The position numbers and the translations under genes are program-made. Positions 56,572 through 64,000 of a stretch of 64,000 bases of DNA are shown one piece after another; within the stretch, counting starts at the first letter, position 1; each line of letters opens with the position of its first letter. Under the pieces are notes generated by a model. It had not been told where the DNA came from. It did not search any database and saw only the letters and a list, made by a program, of their open reading frames with translations. The stretch comes from Sabulibacter ruber (GTDB taxonomy: Bacteria > Bacteroidota > Bacteroidia > Cytophagales > Hymenobacteraceae): contig NZ_JAFFID010000001.1 in assembly GCF_017355955.1 (NCBI RefSeq), forward strand, positions 1,798,001 to 1,862,000, read 5' to 3'.

Positions 56572-56590
56572 GTGATCCCGCTGGGATTCT
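56572..56590 (-). other. tRNA 3'-end fragment, candidate attachment site of the integrative element
   Basis: Read on the minus strand, GAATCCCAGCGGGATCACT has the layout of a tRNA from the T-loop (G57 A58 A59 T60) through the 3' T-stem CCCAG, acceptor strand CGGGATC and discriminator A. The 5' three quarters of a tRNA are absent: preceding bases give AAA where TTC should be, and no D- or anticodon arm is found. Tyrosine recombinases often integrate at tRNA 3' ends and leave such a fragment at the far end. The amino-acid type cannot be told. Confidence 0.55.
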
Positions 56591-57906: not shown

Positions 57907-58158
57907 TCATTTTGGAACTTGGATGCCTCTTTCTAGAAGCAAAGCCTTGGCGACTGCACAAGTTTCATAGTCTTCATTCTGCAACGCTTGTAGATAAAGG
58001 TTCATAAGGGAAGGGTCAGTAGGTTCGGCCTCTCTGAGATAGGGCAATCTTTTTTCTTCATCAAGTGCTCTGATCTGCTTAGAGATTGCTTTTGAAATGC
58101 CGTTATAATGGCTTACAAATTGCTTTTCTTCTTCGTTGTCTGGTTTAAAGTTTTCCAT
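57907..58158 (-). CDS. Small hypothetical protein (cassette-like gene)
   Basis: An 83-residue acidic, helical protein (MENFKPDNEEEKQFVSHYNGI). No family is recognised; there is no signal peptide or membrane segment. Charged, helix-rich composition supports a real gene. It is in the row of minus-strand single genes separated by attC-like palindromes; the one on its upstream side is about 105 bases away. Confidence 0.6.
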   Translation of the reverse strand: MENFKPDNEEEKQFVSHYNGISKAISKQIRALDEEKRLPYLREAEPTDPSLMNLYLQALQNEDYETCAVAKALLLERGIQVPK

Positions 58159-58262
58159 AATCTAATAAGTTTCTATTACTTTATTTGGGAAGCAAATTAT
58201 TAAACTGCCTTACAGCATTAATTCCTGTCAAGTCATTAACATGTTAAACAAAAGCCTTTCTA

Positions 58263-58323
58263 TTAACTATTATGCCGTTATTATGCCGTCGGCCGAAGTA
58301 TGGTGTTTGCACAATGTTGGCAC
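58263..58323 (-). repeat. attC-like imperfect palindrome 1
   Basis: Outer arms are TTAAC (58263) and GTTGGCAC (to 58323). The inner arms ATTATGC and GCACAAT pair, with a wobble. The centre is GCCGTCGGCCG (58285-58295). The site starts 10 bases after the stop of the 58334-58921 gene. The layout of outer box, spacer, inner box and centre is that of integron attC sites, oriented with the minus-strand genes. Confidence 0.6.
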
Positions 58324-58333
58324 AAGTGTTTTT

Positions 58334-58921
58334 TTAGTACTGCGCCCAAACTAATTTCATTTTCAATCCTGTTTGTTTCTCAATATGGCTTACAAGTTCC
58401 TGTTGGTTTACTTTGTCAAAGTCGGGATTTATTATGGTAATCTGATATTTTGAAAATCCTGATTCAGAATCGTAAATAAGGTTATTCAAGCTTGTCCCTT
58501 TTTTGCAACAGGGAGTTACAAATTCCATTTCTATAAAGTCGGACTCTTCAGCTTTGGCCATTTCCTCTTGCCATTTCTCAAATTCAATTTCTCTTCTACA
58601 ATGAGGGCAGGTAATTTTTTCGAGGTTTACTCCTGAATCCGCAAAATCTACTTTGTTCTTTATCTCAAAGGTAATTTCCTTTTCGGGAAAGGTTCTGGTT
58701 ATGAATTCAGCTATAGATTGATTCTTTTCTTCTGTGATTTCTAAATTATAGTCATTTGGGATAATTTTAAGCTGAAAATCGGAGAATACTGAGTTTGATG
58801 GTTTATATGTGAATTCAATACCATTTTCATTTTCTTTCCTTTCCATTTGAATGTTTTCTTTTGTTGCGGAACAAGCTGATATAATCTGAAATAGGAATAA
58901 GAGAATAACTAATTTTTTCAT
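58334..58921 (-). CDS. Hypothetical lipoprotein with CxxC motif (cassette-like gene)
   Basis: A 195-residue protein with a lipoprotein signal (MKKLVILLFLFQIISACSA, lipidated Cys about 17). The mature part is acidic with a CPHCRREIEF zinc-ribbon-like motif near residue 99 and a second Cys pair, PCCKKG. CPHCRR also appears in the DUF4145-type neighbour. Function unknown. Its ATG follows directly on the GTTAAGG end of attC-like site 2, as in integron cassettes. Confidence 0.7.
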   Translation of the reverse strand: MKKLVILLFLFQIISACSATKENIQMERKENENGIEFTYKPSNSVFSDFQLKIIPNDYNLEITEEKNQSIAEFITRTFPEKEITFEIKNKVDFADSGVNLEKITCPHCRREIEFEKWQEEMAKAEESDFIEMEFVTPCCKKGTSLNNLIYDSESGFSKYQITIINPDFDKVNQQELVSHIEKQTGLKMKLVWAQY

Positions 58922-58922
58922 C

Positions 58923-58990
58923 CTTAACGTACTGGTGTAAACGGCGGCGGAGGCCGTCGGCCGATGCTGGCGTTTACGCGTTGTTAGCGC
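58923..58990 (-). repeat. attC-like imperfect palindrome 2
   Basis: Outer boxes CTTAAC (58923) and GTTAGCGC (to 58990) pair through TAAC/GTTA. Inner boxes TAAACG and CGTTTA pair perfectly. The centre is GCCGTCGGCCG (58953-58963), identical to sites 1 and 3. The spacers between outer and inner boxes differ in length on the two sides, a typical attC feature. It begins 5 bases after the stop of the 58995-59489 gene and touches the next start codon. Confidence 0.7.
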
Positions 58991-58994
58991 ACGT

Positions 58995-59489
58995 TTATTT
59001 TTCTACATAAATGGTATCATCTGAAAGTTTAATCCACATAAAGCCATCGATTTGTGCTTGTAATTTTGAGCCATCAGCATTAGGCAATATTGATTCTAAA
59101 ATTATTGGAAATAAGCTTTCGCTAGTTTCATTTAGCATCTTATAAGTTTCTTCTTTAGTTTGGTCGTCAGGCTGTGAAATGCCCATCCAAAAATTTGCCA
59201 TTTGGTTCCCAGCAAAAATATATGGTTGGATACTACTTAATGAATTATCAAACGAAGGAGAGCATAGACCAGAATATTTTCTACCTGATTTCGACATAAA
59301 CTCACCTTCTATGATTAAAAGTCCTTCCGATGGATCTGGGTATTTTAAGTCTAAACGTGGTTTTAAAGTTGTTTCATCTTGCCCATCTTCCCCCTCCTCA
59401 TCAATTGCAAATTCCCAAATTGGAGAAATTTCAAAATGACTTTTATTGAAGTCTTCAAATTGGATTCTTAATTTTTCAATATTTTCCAT
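58995..59489 (-). CDS. Hypothetical acidic protein (cassette-like gene)
   Basis: A 164-residue soluble, acidic protein (EEGEDGQDET near residue 30; FIFAGNQ-like and FWMGISQPDDQT segments). No known family is recognised, and no signal peptide or membrane helix is present. It starts about 20 bases after attC-like site 3 and ends 5 bases before site 2, a tight single-gene cassette layout. Confidence 0.68.
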   Translation of the reverse strand: MENIEKLRIQFEDFNKSHFEISPIWEFAIDEEGEDGQDETTLKPRLDLKYPDPSEGLLIIEGEFMSKSGRKYSGLCSPSFDNSLSSIQPYIFAGNQMANFWMGISQPDDQTKEETYKMLNETSESLFPIILESILPNADGSKLQAQIDGFMWIKLSDDTIYVEK

Positions 59490-59508
59490 GGAATTTAATT
59501 TTAAATGA

Positions 59509-59579
59509 GCGCTAACGGATTAGTGCATGAGGCGTGCAAGGCCGTCGGCCGTAGCATGGCTTATGCGCCTTGTTGTGGG
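59509..59579 (-). repeat. attC-like imperfect palindrome 3
   Basis: Outer boxes GCGCTAAC (59509-59516) and GTTGTGGG (59572-59579); inner pairing between GCATGAGGC and GCTTATGC-type arms with bulges; centre GCCGTCGGCCG (59541-59551). It lies between the 59677-59991 and 58995-59489 genes. Confidence 0.65.
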
Positions 59580-59676
59580 AAGTTGTTTTTTTATTCTATT
59601 TTATTTTCTGTTTTAAGGCTGTTTTCTGAAAATTAGGTCAAAGACAGTTATTTCTTTATCAGGTAATCTTTACTCC

Positions 59677-59991
59677 TTATACAATTACCTTCCTTCTTTT
59701 AGAGATGAAAGCTATTAATCTCTCTATTGCGAAAGAATAAAAAATAATATTTGAAAGAAGTGCTGGAAAATAAAGAGCCATGTATTCGGTTATAACTCCC
59801 CAGAACAAAGTATGAAAAGGAAATCGTAGAATTTGAAATGTCGCCGCTAATATTGTAGATAATAATCCGCCGCCAGAAGTACCTTCATCTTCGGCAAAAG
59901 CTGCAATGAAGGAGGCAATCATCAGAAGGGTAATTATAGAACCAATCGTAATGAAAGCTAAAGGATTAAAATTCTTTGGTAGAATCTTCAT
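59677..59991 (-). CDS. Small membrane protein of unknown function (cassette-like gene)
   Basis: A 104-residue protein from ATG 59991 (MKILPKNFNPLAFITIG) with two or three hydrophobic segments (FITIGSIITLLMIASFIAAF and YMALYFPALLSNIIFYSF) and a basic C-terminus. An in-frame GTG at 60015 would add eight polar residues. Not recognised. It is the first gene of the cassette row when read on the minus strand. Confidence 0.6.
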   Translation of the reverse strand: MKILPKNFNPLAFITIGSIITLLMIASFIAAFAEDEGTSGGGLLSTILAATFQILRFPFHTLFWGVITEYMALYFPALLSNIIFYSFAIERLIAFISKRRKVIV

Positions 59992-60014
59992 TTTTCCATG
60001 ATTACAATTACCCA

Positions 60015-60053
60015 CAACTAACGGATAAACGGAACACCTACGGTTATTGGCAC
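60015..60053 (-). repeat. Degenerate attC-like element 4
   Basis: CTAAC (60018) and GTTATTGGC (to 60051) can form the outer boxes, with partly pairing inner arms (TAAACGG and CGGTTA). The GCCGTCGGCCG centre is absent and the site is shorter. It may be a reduced attC or the upstream (attI-like) end of the row. Weak on its own. Confidence 0.3.
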
Positions 60054-60816
60054 TATAGGTGGAAGTAGTTCAACCATCCTTTTTAATGTACCTTTTTTCA
60101 GGGTTCATGTAAATCCCTCCTCAAAGTAACCGTTTTTCCCTGAACCTCAAAATAGTGCCCTGTTTACCTCAAAATGGCGGTTCTGATGGTCTGGAAGCCC
60201 CAGATTCAGGATTCCCTTGCTGTTGGCACCCATCTAAACAAAGCCTTTCAACCCTTATTCGTAAGCTATGCGCTTGTATTCGGGTATATCCGGTTATACA
60301 CGGGTAGTACACGGTTAAATAATTTAAATTTAAAATCCTGCCCAAAACGCCTGTTTTCTGGGAAGTAGTACACGTGCCTTTTTTGGCTGTAAAAACGCCA
60401 ACTAGAACACCCTAGAATCCGGCTTGATGCCACTTTGCCGGAAATCATCACATAAACTGAAAGGGAAGAGGCCCAAACGATTTGCTTTTCCGTCGTTTAC
60501 CTTACCCTTCTGAACCTTAGGGCCAGTATCTAAATCGGAATGGAATCATAGCCTTAAATTATTTAATTGTTTCTAAAGGGCTCGGCGCACATATCCGCTT
60601 AATGCCCTTTTCAGTTCCTGCAAAACCCCTTCCAACAATTTATCACTCCCCTGAAAATACCATCCAGAACCTTCGTTCACTTGTAAGAAGCCGATGTACC
60701 TTTGCAAAAGGCAATTCACACCGGACATTCTAAACCCATTTTCAAAGAAGGAAAACCCTTCTGCCGGTATGCTATTGCCCAAACCCAAACAATTAAACAA
60801 TTTTATAAAACATCAA
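60054..60816. other. Divergent non-coding region of the element
   Basis: About 760 bases without a supported gene, between the cassette row (leftward) and the polymerase gene (rightward). It contains repeated short blocks: ACCTCAAAAT twice near 60145-60175, GTAGTACACG at 60304 and 60365, palindrome-like TTAAATAATTTAAAT near 60304 and TTAAATTATTTAAT near 60555. A promoter candidate lies at 60672-60704. It could be part of an origin or control region. Confidence 0.45.
60672..60704 (+). promoter_or_regulatory. Candidate promoter of the polymerase gene
   Basis: TACCTTTG at 60697-60704 is an exact match to the Bacteroidota -7 box TAnnTTTG. TTCG at 60672-60675, 21 bases before it, is one mismatch from the -33 TTTG. 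If real, transcription starts near 60711, so the ATG at 60694 cannot be used and translation starts at 60769 or 60817. Confidence 0.5.
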
Positions 60817-62445
60817 ATGCACTATTCAGTACCATCAAATTTTGACATTGAAAAACACCTTGAGCAGTACCCGCTGGAAGAATGGTGGCCCCAAAGCGCC
60901 ATAAAGGACTTCTGCCCAGACAAGTTGCACTACGTCCTTTCCCTTCCAATTGAAATCCCCTCCAACAACAAAGACCTCAAGCACCGCAACGGCTTTGTGC
61001 CCATCAATTCCACGGCACTTAAAAACGCCATCGGGAACGAATACAAACACTACCTTGACTATCTGGTGAACACGGGCGTGTTTGACGGGGGGAACAATCA
61101 GTACAGGAACGGCATCCACTCCCGCATGTACCGCTACACCAAGGAGTACCGGCAAGGGTTCAGGACGGTAGAAGTTAAAAAGACCTTTTCCTTCACCTAC
61201 AAAAAGGAAATCACCAAGCTGGAGGAGGAGCGCCTACGGGAACTTGACTCCAAGATAGGGAAGCACCTGATTAAACAATTTAACAAAGACCTTCTGAAGA
61301 TGGACTTGGAAGGGGCAGAATCATACATGCGCAGCACCTTTCTGAAAGGCGTTAGGGAAGTCGGTTTTTTAAATTTAAAAAATAGGGTCATAGAAGTGAA
61401 CAACCTCAACCGGCAGGACCCTACCGCCAAGGAGAAACTGACACCAAGAGAGAAAAAGCTATTAAAGTTCTACACCAACCTGCACGCGGCCATGAAGATA
61501 GCGGACGGCAACTTTTACCACGGCTTTGACACCGTCTCCGGCCGGTTCCACTCCTCGTTAACTAATTTAAAAAAGGAACTACGGAATTTCCTGACATACG
61601 GCGGGGAGAGCCTGTATGAGGTGGATTTGAAGAACAGCCAGATGTGGTTCAGCCTTTTGCTTCTGGATAGGGAGTTCTACGGGAAAAAGAGGGTGCGCGG
61701 CGCTAAATTTTCTATTTCCCCTTCCTCTATGTTCATTGATAAAGGTATTCCTAATGTCATAGATGCAAATATCCCTTCCACAAAGGCTAAAATAACCTTT
61801 AAAAGGTTGTCTATCCATAATGTATTATCAAACGAGATATTCCAATGTCTTCCAAATGTCTTCTCTAACGTTATGCTTCAAGATATACTTAAAGACATTG
61901 ACAATGAAGATGTTGTCCACTACAGGAATGTGGTACTTGAAGGAAAGCTGTATGATTACCTTTTAGATAGGTATGAAGAGAAGACAGGCAGAAAGGATAT
62001 GGACAGGGGAAAGATGAAGAAAGTGATGTTCACCATCCTTTTCTCCGAGAACGAGAAAGAAACGAAAGGAAGGGAAACCATGAAGGCAATGAAAATCAGG
62101 GAGCAGCGGGAAGCCGCAAAAGACCTCTTCCGAAGCTGCTTCCCCACTGTGATGCGTCTGTTTGAGTACATCAAGCAGGAGAACCACCGCCTGCTCGCCT
62201 GCCTCCTGCAAGCCATAGAGGCCCACGTACTTTTGAACAAGGTGTGCGGCAGGATAAAGAGGGAGAGACCGGCCATGCCCCTGTTCACGGTGCACGATTC
62301 CATCCTGACCACGGAGATGAACAAGGACTATTTGGTTAGGGTGGTAAGGGAAGAGTGCCTACGGCTCACCGGCTACACGCCAAGGGCAGAGCCTAACCTG
62401 CTGCACCCCGGAAAGCTGGAAATGCCATTTAAAACGGCGGCATAG
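60817..62445 (+). CDS. Divergent family-A-like polymerase of the integrative element
   Basis: 542 residues from ATG 60817 (583 if ATG 60694 is used; numbers below use the longer form). GRFHSSLTNLKKELRNF, then VDLKNSQ with Asp311, resembles motif A of DNA polymerase I and its preceding G-R...NL segment. Motif B is R438-x3-K442-x3-F446-x3-F450, the exact spacing of the O-helix R-K-F-Y series. QAIEAHVL and FTVHDSILTT (His534-Asp535) match the Q-helix and motif C. Pol I has HDE; T7 RNA polymerase has HDS as here. The Glu that excludes ribonucleotides in Pol I is Gln316. There is no exonuclease domain. Likely role: replication of the element. Residues about 334-424 use more AT-rich codons. Confidence 0.6.
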   Translation: MHYSVPSNFDIEKHLEQYPLEEWWPQSAIKDFCPDKLHYVLSLPIEIPSNNKDLKHRNGFVPINSTALKNAIGNEYKHYLDYLVNTGVFDGGNNQYRNGIHSRMYRYTKEYRQGFRTVEVKKTFSFTYKKEITKLEEERLRELDSKIGKHLIKQFNKDLLKMDLEGAESYMRSTFLKGVREVGFLNLKNRVIEVNNLNRQDPTAKEKLTPREKKLLKFYTNLHAAMKIADGNFYHGFDTVSGRFHSSLTNLKKELRNFLTYGGESLYEVDLKNSQMWFSLLLLDREFYGKKRVRGAKFSISPSSMFIDKGIPNVIDANIPSTKAKITFKRLSIHNVLSNEIFQCLPNVFSNVMLQDILKDIDNEDVVHYRNVVLEGKLYDYLLDRYEEKTGRKDMDRGKMKKVMFTILFSENEKETKGRETMKAMKIREQREAAKDLFRSCFPTVMRLFEYIKQENHRLLACLLQAIEAHVLLNKVCGRIKRERPAMPLFTVHDSILTTEMNKDYLVRVVREECLRLTGYTPRAEPNLLHPGKLEMPFKTAA

Positions 62446-62474
62446 AATAAATTAACAGAACCGATGCCATGACC

Positions 62475-63010
62475 CTGTTTTAGCCCTACCATAATATTTT
62501 CTGAATTGAATGGTGCCATTGGCACCTGAAAAGGATGCGCCTCTTGGCGGGGCTAAAACAGCGGTAAAACAAGGTCTTCAGAGGTATGCGGGTGCCACCT
62601 TAAACCACAAAGACAAAGCGCGTGGGTAGTCTGGCCTGTGTACTTCCGGATGGCTAAAGAGAACCCATTGGACAATGGAAGGTTTCTGTTGCACAGGCTT
62701 GAAAATAGCCTGTTATAGGCGTTTACAGCTATCCATTGCTGTGGATTGACTTAGGCCAGCTTGGCAAGCGAAGCCTGAATGGACGGCCTGAAACAGGGCT
62801 AAAACAGCCATTTTGCAATAGCGAAGCAGAGGGCTGTTCTAGGGCAAGCGGAAACAGGGGAAAGACGGTTTGCTTGTCTCTGCTCAAGGGCGAGGAAGCA
62901 AAATTCAGAACTCTGGTTTTAGCCGTTTAGAGCCGTTTCCAGAATCAAAGGCAGAGGAGAGAGTTGAGGGGGAGAAATGGGAATGAAGGGGCTAAAAACA
63001 GGGCTAAACC
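62475..63010. repeat. Iteron-like GGGCTAAAACAG repeats
   Basis: Exact copies at 62550-62561 and 62796-62807 (plus strand) and 62475-62486 (minus strand); a one-base-longer copy, GGGCTAAAAACAG, at 62989-63001, followed at once by GGGCTAAACC. A weaker match on the minus strand lies near 62915. Spacing is irregular, unlike classical tandem iterons, but four copies of a 12-mer in 530 bases are not expected by chance. Confidence 0.6.
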
Positions 63011-63036
63011 ACTATGGCAAAGGGATGGTGTAAGCC

Positions 63037-63222: not shown

Positions 63223-63477
63223 TCAATTACCAAATTTTATCCTCTCAATATCTTCAGCCCTAAATCTATTTTGGTCTGAATATTGAACCGGAACCAAAAC
63301 CCCTTCCTTAATTAACTTTTTAAGGGTATTGAAACTGCAGTTCAACTCTTCCATAACCTGTTTAGGCTTAAGCAGCGGCTTGGACATTTGAAGAGGTGAA
63401 ATCATATTAGCAACCTTATTAAAAAATCTCTCTTCAAATTCATTTAAATCATTCTTTGTCAAAATATCAATATTCAT
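63223..63477 (-). CDS. Excisionase-like helix-turn-helix protein
   Basis: An 84-residue protein. The C-terminal half, LLKPKQVMEELNCSFNTLKKLIKEGVLVPV followed by NRFRAEDIERI, is the HTH_17/excisionase winged-helix pattern common in Bacteroidota integrative elements. The N-terminal 35 residues form a helix. It probably binds near the attachment site to favour excision, or controls transcription. It lies about 100 bases downstream of the recombinase gene on the same strand and ends at a strong terminator. Confidence 0.82.
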   Translation of the reverse strand: MNIDILTKNDLNEFEERFFNKVANMISPLQMSKPLLKPKQVMEELNCSFNTLKKLIKEGVLVPVQYSDQNRFRAEDIERIKFGN

Positions 63478-63573: not shown

Positions 63574-64000
63574 TTAACTTACATTTTTCAACAATCCACC
63601 TTCTAATTCAAACAACGTTTGCATTTCATTAATAATCTTAAGCGGCACTACTTTAGCGTATACTTGCGTAGTCTTTACACTCTTATGACCCAACATTTTA
63701 CCTATGGCTTCCCTTGAAATACCTAATGAGAACAACTTTGTAGCGAAAGTGTGTCTAGCTACGTGACTAGAAATATTTTTACTAATACCACACTCTTCTG
63801 CGACAATTTTTAAATACTTGTTGTAGTTCTTCAATGAGGGAATCGGAAAAAATGTACCACGCGAAAGACTAACTGGATGATTCTTGTACTTTTCAATAAT
63901 CATTTTTGCATCTGAAAATAAAGGCACAGTAAACTGCTCTCCTGTTTTTCCCCTACAACCAACTACCCACTCCCAATCACAGTTAGGCATCTTCTTAATG
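63574..64000 (-). CDS. Tyrosine recombinase (integrase), C-terminal part
   Basis: 142 residues are visible; the frame runs off the right edge, so the N-terminal arm-binding and core-binding domains and the first catalytic Arg lie outside. Visible: RGKTGEQFTVPL with the beta-hairpin Lys, SSHVARHTFATKLFSLGI with the H-x-x-R box, LGHKSVKTTQVYAKV with the second His and the nucleophilic Tyr. All key residues expected in this part are present, so it should be active. It would integrate and excise the element, here probably at a tRNA 3' end. Confidence 0.9.
   Translation of the reverse strand, partial: IKKMPNCDWEWVVGCRGKTGEQFTVPLFSDAKMIIEKYKNHPVSLSRGTFFPIPSLKNYNKYLKIVAEECGISKNISSHVARHTFATKLFSLGISREAIGKMLGHKSVKTTQVYAKVVPLKIINEMQTLFELEGGLLKNVS

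Follow-up and report, generated by a model that had tools for sequence, protein, structure and literature searches.

What kind of polymerase is encoded in the chromosome of Sabulibacter ruber, and what does it do for the DNA that carries it? The window analysed here is a stretch of 64,000 nucleotides (contig NZ_JAFFID010000001.1, positions 1,798,001 to 1,862,000). The first-pass annotation of this window had proposed a stand-alone family-A-like polymerase with mixed DNA and RNA polymerase motifs, possibly an element-specific replicase. We found the open reading frame and all of the motifs it listed at the residues it gave (Table 1). They are conserved in an alignment of 65 family members, in which one or two members have no letter at any given column.

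Table 1. Features of the polymerase locus, its element and five related elements. Positions refer to the window unless a contig is named.
Feature	Position	Strand	Size, sequence or evidence
attL, left element boundary	56572..56589		18-bp repeat of the tRNA-Lys 3' end, exact match GTGATCCCGCTGGGATTC
DUF4145 cargo protein, PD-T7-4-like anti-phage candidate	56800..57510	-	PF13643 E 2.5e-10; PADLOC PD-T7-4 E 9.9e-8
Four small cargo ORFs	57907..60015	-	83, 195, 164 and 112 aa; ORF calls
TV-Pol-type family-A polymerase ORF	60694..62445	+	583 aa, ATG start, no internal stop
N-terminal winged-helix-like domain, residues 75-148	60916..61137	+	AlphaFold2 models, pLDDT mostly >80
GRxHT...LR motif (R284, R297)	61543..61584	+	conserved arginine region ahead of the palm; R297 in 59/65
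Motif A, D311-L-K-N-S-Q316	61624..61641	+	family alignment
Motif B (fingers), R438-x3-K442-x3-F446-x3-F450	62005..62043	+	family alignment
Motif C, H534-D535-S536	62293..62301	+	family alignment; S536 in 54/65
Inverted repeat 3' of the polymerase gene, conserved	62471..62572		CTGTTTTAGCCC-63-GGGCTAAAACAG, then TAAAACA
Second, weaker inverted-repeat copy	62910-63011		
HTH_17 protein, candidate excisionase	63223..63477	-	84 aa; PF12728 E 2.5e-6
Tyrosine integrase	63574..64000, 5' part onward to contig C111 1862812	-	412 aa; PF13102, PF00589, PF17293
attR	contig C111 1863208-1863225		about 1.2 kb past the window end
Elements at L042, L044, L062	tRNA-Met		8.7, 9.1 and 10.0 kb
Elements at L055, L047	tRNA-Val		12.5 and 17.9 kb

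The residues expected at a polymerase active site are near-invariant in the family. D311, D535, E509 and Y420 each occur in 64 of 65 members and are invariant where present, and K442 (63/65), H534 (63/65), Q316 (62/65) and R284 (62/65) are almost invariant. R438 is found in 51 of 65 members, and position 450 is F or Y in 64 of 65. Phe446 had been read as a DNA-polymerase-like mark; this residue is F in only 34 of 65 members and M, Y, L or I in the rest, and it is therefore no family hallmark. The spacing from K442 to D535 is tight across the family (median 79), whereas that from D311 to K442 varies from 49 to 175 residues and spans an insert at 331-389 that is poorly modelled. Most homologues are only 20-30% identical. 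Near-invariance of the motifs at this degree of divergence indicates that they are not chance matches and that catalytic activity is under selection. The 583-aa protein is real and conserved, and almost certainly a polymerase. Its actual start may lie at Met26 or Met42, since residues ~1-40 are modelled with low confidence and many relatives begin near the equivalent of Met42.

Among 390 genomes of the order, 45 hold homologues by E-value, frequently two or more each; across the phylum the figure is 16 of 395. Relatives were also found on a Hymenobacter plasmid, in six phage records (huge phages) and at 23 IMG/VR loci. No model in Pfam, NCBIfam or PADLOC covers the family. None of 42 members matched any Pfam or NCBIfam polymerase model; this includes the curated PF00476 model (DNA polymerase I), one of the profiles proposed earlier as a check. 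Searching Pfam, PHROGs and PDB with the single polymerase sequence gave only noise, and viral scans with P0001 or with a huge-phage member as query gave no matches. The host carries a separate PolA elsewhere in its genome.

We relied on structure to assign the fold, because profile comparisons by hhalign were too weak to decide between PolA and T7 RNA polymerase. The PolA comparison reached E 0.0099 with a probability of 4%, and its score exceeded that for T7 RNA polymerase in an unequal comparison with a single T7 sequence. When the family profile was compared with PDB sequences, the sole match was DNA polymerase I; it was weak (E 3.2), with collinear segments. An AlphaFold2 model was built from the window protein together with R. 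latericius and IMG/VR relatives. The mean pLDDT was 74.7, with most of the core at 80-95 and disorder at 1-40 and 331-389. A PDB structure search with the model returned 36 matches at E<=1e-3. All 36 were DNA polymerase I, the best being apPOL (3.1e-5), and T7 RNA polymerase was absent at this threshold. TM-scores over the whole chain were modest (~0.25-0.36), as expected from the differing N-terminal part and the long insert. Matches among virus models included the replication protein of the Zamilon virophage (E 1.8e-3) and a phage protein labelled 'putative DNA polymerase I'. In the model, D311 lies in a palm strand and D535 opens the next palm hairpin, both with high confidence, so that, judged by strand position, neither refuting condition set earlier (a missing palm fold, or the two Asp residues apart) was seen. 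These data indicate that the predicted fold is a family-A right hand. Together with the absence of any nuclease domain in Pfam searches of the polymerase, they agree with the earlier description of a stand-alone family-A polymerase without exonuclease.

The same data bear on the proposal of a mixed DNA/RNA polymerase. Comparison with PolA aligns D311 and Q316 with the D and E of DYSQIE, placing Gln316 where the sugar-discriminating Glu would be, as the first-pass annotation had noted, and the HDS form of motif C is indeed shared with T7 RNA polymerase. The Ser after HD and the Gln are thus both present, but hybrid ancestry is not borne out. With only DNA polymerase I among the PDB neighbours at E<=1e-3, the mixed designation comes down to one Ser and one Gln. 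The near-invariant Gln at the sugar-gate position in the family alignment is a new feature.

Rather than a hybrid of unknown kind, the protein fits a described family. Iyer, Abhiman and Aravind defined the TV-Pols in 2008 from transposon and virus sequences (PMC2579912). They are nuclease-free proteins of 400-600 aa with a minimal family-A core, predicted to act as both primase and polymerase (prim-pols), and a subset has an extra N-terminal domain and a neighbouring gamma-delta resolvase or lambda-type integrase (PMC2579912). The 2008 alignment includes Cytophaga hutchinsonii, and the family was reported in Bacteroidetes (PMC2579912). The polymerase is best filed as a TV-Pol, or a very close relative of one, in a family known since 2008. 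The TV-Pol of phage Ma-LMM01, sought as a positive control with the family HMM, gave no significant match.

The model also places a winged-helix-like domain ahead of the polymerase core, with the order H75-91 E102-105 H106-113 H117-126 E130-132 E143-148, and this unit reappears in a second AlphaFold2 model. Searched against the PDB, the domain had no significant match; the best was a plasmid Rep-DNA complex (5kbj, E 0.42), followed by CodY, MarR and ArsR types. Homology to RepA was rejected because the 5kbj match is not significant, and the likeness is one of topology alone. As modelled, a winged-helix-like domain fused N-terminally to the polymerase is a new feature.

We found that the polymerase gene lies within an insertion of about 8.65 kb in tRNA-Lys, with two tRNA-Lys genes beyond the integrase. 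Against the second tRNA copy, the attL match lengthens to 20 bp. Sister genomes show the empty site, with tRNA-Lys following the left flank without interruption; in four of these genomes the sequence spanning the junction is 89-96% identical over 93-131 bp, which identifies the island as an insertion. The integrase is one of seven PF00589 matches in the host's 6.16-Mb genome. The polymerase, the integrase, the Xis candidate and the att sites of this element are all intact. These results support the earlier suggestion that the polymerase belongs to an element, and they indicate that it is part of a site-specific integrative element of a Rufibacter-like host. The N-terminal domain, the element boundaries, the integrase, the att sites and the empty site were absent from the first-pass annotation.

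Within the element, the DUF4145 protein is, from its sequence matches, a candidate single-gene anti-phage system. The four small cargo ORFs matched no Pfam or PADLOC family above cut-off, and their G+C content is ~33-38%, lower than the ~40-43% of a large part of the left flank. No helicase, relaxase, capsid, SSB, nuclease or second polymerase was recognised in the element. Specifically, family models recognised no helicase or MP-like SSB gene beside the polymerase, where the neighbours are DUF4145, small ORFs, HTH_17 and the integrase.

Five further elements of 8.7-17.9 kb could be delimited in the same way, each with a polymerase and an integrase inside. This tRNA-integrated, well-delimited class of element carrying a TV-Pol is likewise new. 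Of 41 bacterial loci, 16 have a tyrosine integrase and 8 a serine recombinase at most 6 kb from the polymerase, and 20 have one or the other. By chance, PF00589 would be expected at ~0.7 of 41 loci, a density taken from one genome, the host's own. About half of the 41 bacterial loci have no recombinase within 6 kb. Nine of the 41 loci have an HTH_17-type gene no more than 3 kb from the polymerase.

Several of these loci show features of their own. The three tRNA-Met elements are distinct TV-Pol elements that occupy one chromosomal site and have flanking genes in common, which marks the site as an integration hot spot. The cargo of one of them includes paired genes for DarT (PF14487) and a Macro-domain protein (L062 4484-6183), and the 18-kb tRNA-Val element contains a 1597-aa Sacsin/NO VEIN-domain protein (L047 12271-17064). 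A serine recombinase and a small conserved protein of 106-154 aa lie beside the TV-Pol at L002 2976-4062, L042 5245-6263 and L062 6907-8152, a pair that may form a second recombination module. In R. latericius (G347), two polymerase copies are frameshifted and a third, divergent one is intact (L002 882-2551; L069 4499-6160 and 8934-10647), a history of decay and repeated gain.

The relatives on phages and plasmids coexist with other replication genes. Five huge phages of 595-735 kb (LR756501, LR756502, LR756504, LR745206 and LR756511) carry a short relative of 387-424 aa; four of them have split PolB matches and one has PolA and PolIII alpha. A role as the main replicase of huge phages was therefore rejected as a general reading. 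The H. qilianensis plasmid p_unnamed4, which carries a relative, also encodes ParA and a protein annotated for replication initiation, plasmid locus L051 has Rep3, and L050 has a similar gene fragment and ParA. We likewise rejected the reading of the polymerase as a plasmid initiator, the sole replication gene, since the plasmids that carry it have their own Rep. The presence of other DNA polymerases, or of a conventional Rep gene on three plasmids, suggests by analogy that the TV-Pol may be accessory rather than the sole replicase, at least in huge phages and plasmids. On two IMG/VR contigs (L111, L112), a TV-Pol, RNase HI and a serine recombinase are found close to a gene for a large terminase, which in L111 matches phrog_6681 (E 5e-51).

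The polymerase gene is followed by 0.78 kb that separates it from xis. This interval holds three exact copies of GGGCTAAAACAG, all within 333 bp of the gene, and none occurs elsewhere in the 64 kb; allowing two mismatches, the window holds 11 copies where 7.5 are expected, which is not unusual. The ~100-nt repeat, likewise a new feature, also occurs at L002 2567-2668, L041 10272-10374 and L069 8822-8922 (minus strand). In these four copies it begins 14-29 nt past the polymerase stop and forms 16 pairs, 3 of them compensatory. A covariance model gave strong matches only at the four sites from which it was built. Weaker palindromes follow the polymerase gene in L042 and L062, and shorter similar palindromes occur across genomes of the genus, with ~50 at E<=1 in one (G228). 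The repeat is thus a candidate origin or priming site, or a candidate transcription hairpin. Because similar palindromes recur in the genus and the repeat may be a generic hairpin, we treat an origin role as a lead of low weight.

Taken together, these data favor a reading that we consider likely, in which a TV-Pol with a winged-helix-like domain serves an integrative element by priming or limited synthesis after excision, while the host does the bulk of the copying. The polymerase probably primes and/or copies the island DNA once it is out of the chromosome. From the att and empty sites at this locus we infer that the integrase and the HTH_17 Xis candidate would excise the element as a circle. 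The TV-Pol may then use its N-terminal domain to recognise element DNA, perhaps in the 0.78-kb interval that bears the repeats, and would make the first DNA strands, most likely as de novo primers or by limited extension, to judge from CcPol-MP. Host helicase and replicase would carry out bulk synthesis, since the element has no recognised helicase, SSB or other polymerase gene. The copies would reintegrate or be passed on with their cargo, the anti-phage candidate included.

A start without a primase is plausible by analogy, because CcPol, which the 2008 authors assigned to TV-Pol, forms with MP a proven primer-independent DNA primase (Bebel 2020, PMC7581432). CcPol-MP makes DNA primers de novo through the CcPol active site, from dNTPs only; CcPol alone does not prime and needs MP (PMC7581432). 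In the 2020 paper, CcPol was the sole proposed TV-Pol to have been characterised biochemically (PMC7581432). Points against our reading are the weak PolA profile score, the absence of any Pfam or NCBIfam polymerase match among 42 members, CcPol's need for MP, the Gln in place of Glu, the recombinase-free loci and the frameshifted R. latericius copy.

A more self-sufficient enzyme would be a single-chain prim-pol and origin-specific initiator, whose winged helix binds an adjoining origin and whose polymerase initiates and elongates the two strands with no need of the host replicase. The domain layout in the models, the three exact GGGCTAAAACAG copies past the gene with the conserved inverted repeat, and the proposal of TV-Pols as prim-pols (PMC2579912) are consistent with it. 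However, no helicase was recognised in the element, the winged-helix match is below significance, and similar short palindromes are scattered over genomes of the genus, with an unremarkable two-mismatch count in the window. We consider this unlikely, and equally doubtful its extension to a Bacteroidota TV-Pol branch of self-sufficient prim-pols with an origin-binding winged helix and a Gln gate that initiate at the hairpin past their own gene. If true, such a branch would initiate replication of widespread tRNA-integrated, defence-carrying elements, a family-A counterpart of pipolins, which are integrative elements with their own primer-independent PolB and a tyrosine recombinase. The polymerase might instead repair, fill gaps in or make the second strand of incoming single-stranded element DNA, or be part of a defence system, rather than act after excision. 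Both ideas were raised for PolA-SSB primases by Rice 2023, some elements carry defence-type genes (the PD-T7-4-like protein; DarT with a Macro domain), and huge phages with a relative have other DNA polymerases too. The recurring neighbour, however, is a recombinase module and not any given defence gene, and PADLOC has no model for the polymerase; we view this alternative with doubt.

The Ser of motif C and the near-invariant Gln could also point to a T7-like RNA polymerase or an NTP-using RNA primase. This is quite improbable: DNA polymerase I accounts for every PDB fold match at E<=1e-3, the PolA profile score beats that of T7 RNA polymerase (though against one T7 sequence, an unequal test), the Gln side chain is still bulky, and CcPol takes dNTPs only (PMC7581432). 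Relatives on plasmids and phages, and the broken copies in R. latericius, would suit a plasmid or phage replicase stranded as a chromosomal relic, but the intact gene set and att sites of this element, the empty sites in sister genomes and the Rep genes on three plasmids with a relative make this very improbable.

The 2008 prim-pol prediction becomes directly testable on a complete, recently inserted and apparently intact element with known ends, whose host has cultured Rufibacter strains as close relatives. The element would also offer a natural comparison for what allows a family-A polymerase to start primer-free, and it may explain how small defence-carrying islands multiply and move in Cytophagales. 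Such islands are likely under-recognised, since none of Pfam, NCBIfam and PADLOC detects the family.

Among known systems, DNA polymerase I (PF00476) shares the fold and motifs A, B and C, but the protein described here falls below Pfam detection and is exonuclease-free. T7 RNA polymerase shares motif C as HDS and gives no structural match at E<=1e-3. Pipolins likewise combine a polymerase and a tyrosine recombinase in an integrative element, although theirs is a family-B polymerase. The CcPol-MP and PolA-SSB systems of SCCmec and Bacillota islands resemble this locus in having a family-A polymerase domain within a recombinase-bearing island. CcPol retains the sugar-gate Glu (Glu174) and Phe (PMC7581432), whereas Gln316 takes the place of Glu174 here, and the winged-helix-like N-terminal domain stands where those systems have an exonuclease or its remnant; CcPol has no such N-terminal domain. 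PolA-SSB primases have an OB-fold SSB gene beside the polymerase, followed by a helicase, and their last thumb helix is one turn shorter than in Pol I (PMC7581432, PMC10061031).

The closest likeness is to the TV-Pols, in the 583-aa length, the two palm Asp residues, the RxxxK of the fingers, the conserved hairpin Arg ahead of the palm and the lack of a nuclease. The mobile-element setting also agrees, with its own integrase, att and empty site here and a recombinase at 20 of 41 loci. TV-PolN was predicted to be all-helical, whereas the domain here combines helices with a beta wing, and the D5 helicase is absent here. The authors of 2008 inferred replicative transposons, whereas the elements described here are tRNA-specific and integrative, with their ends delimited.
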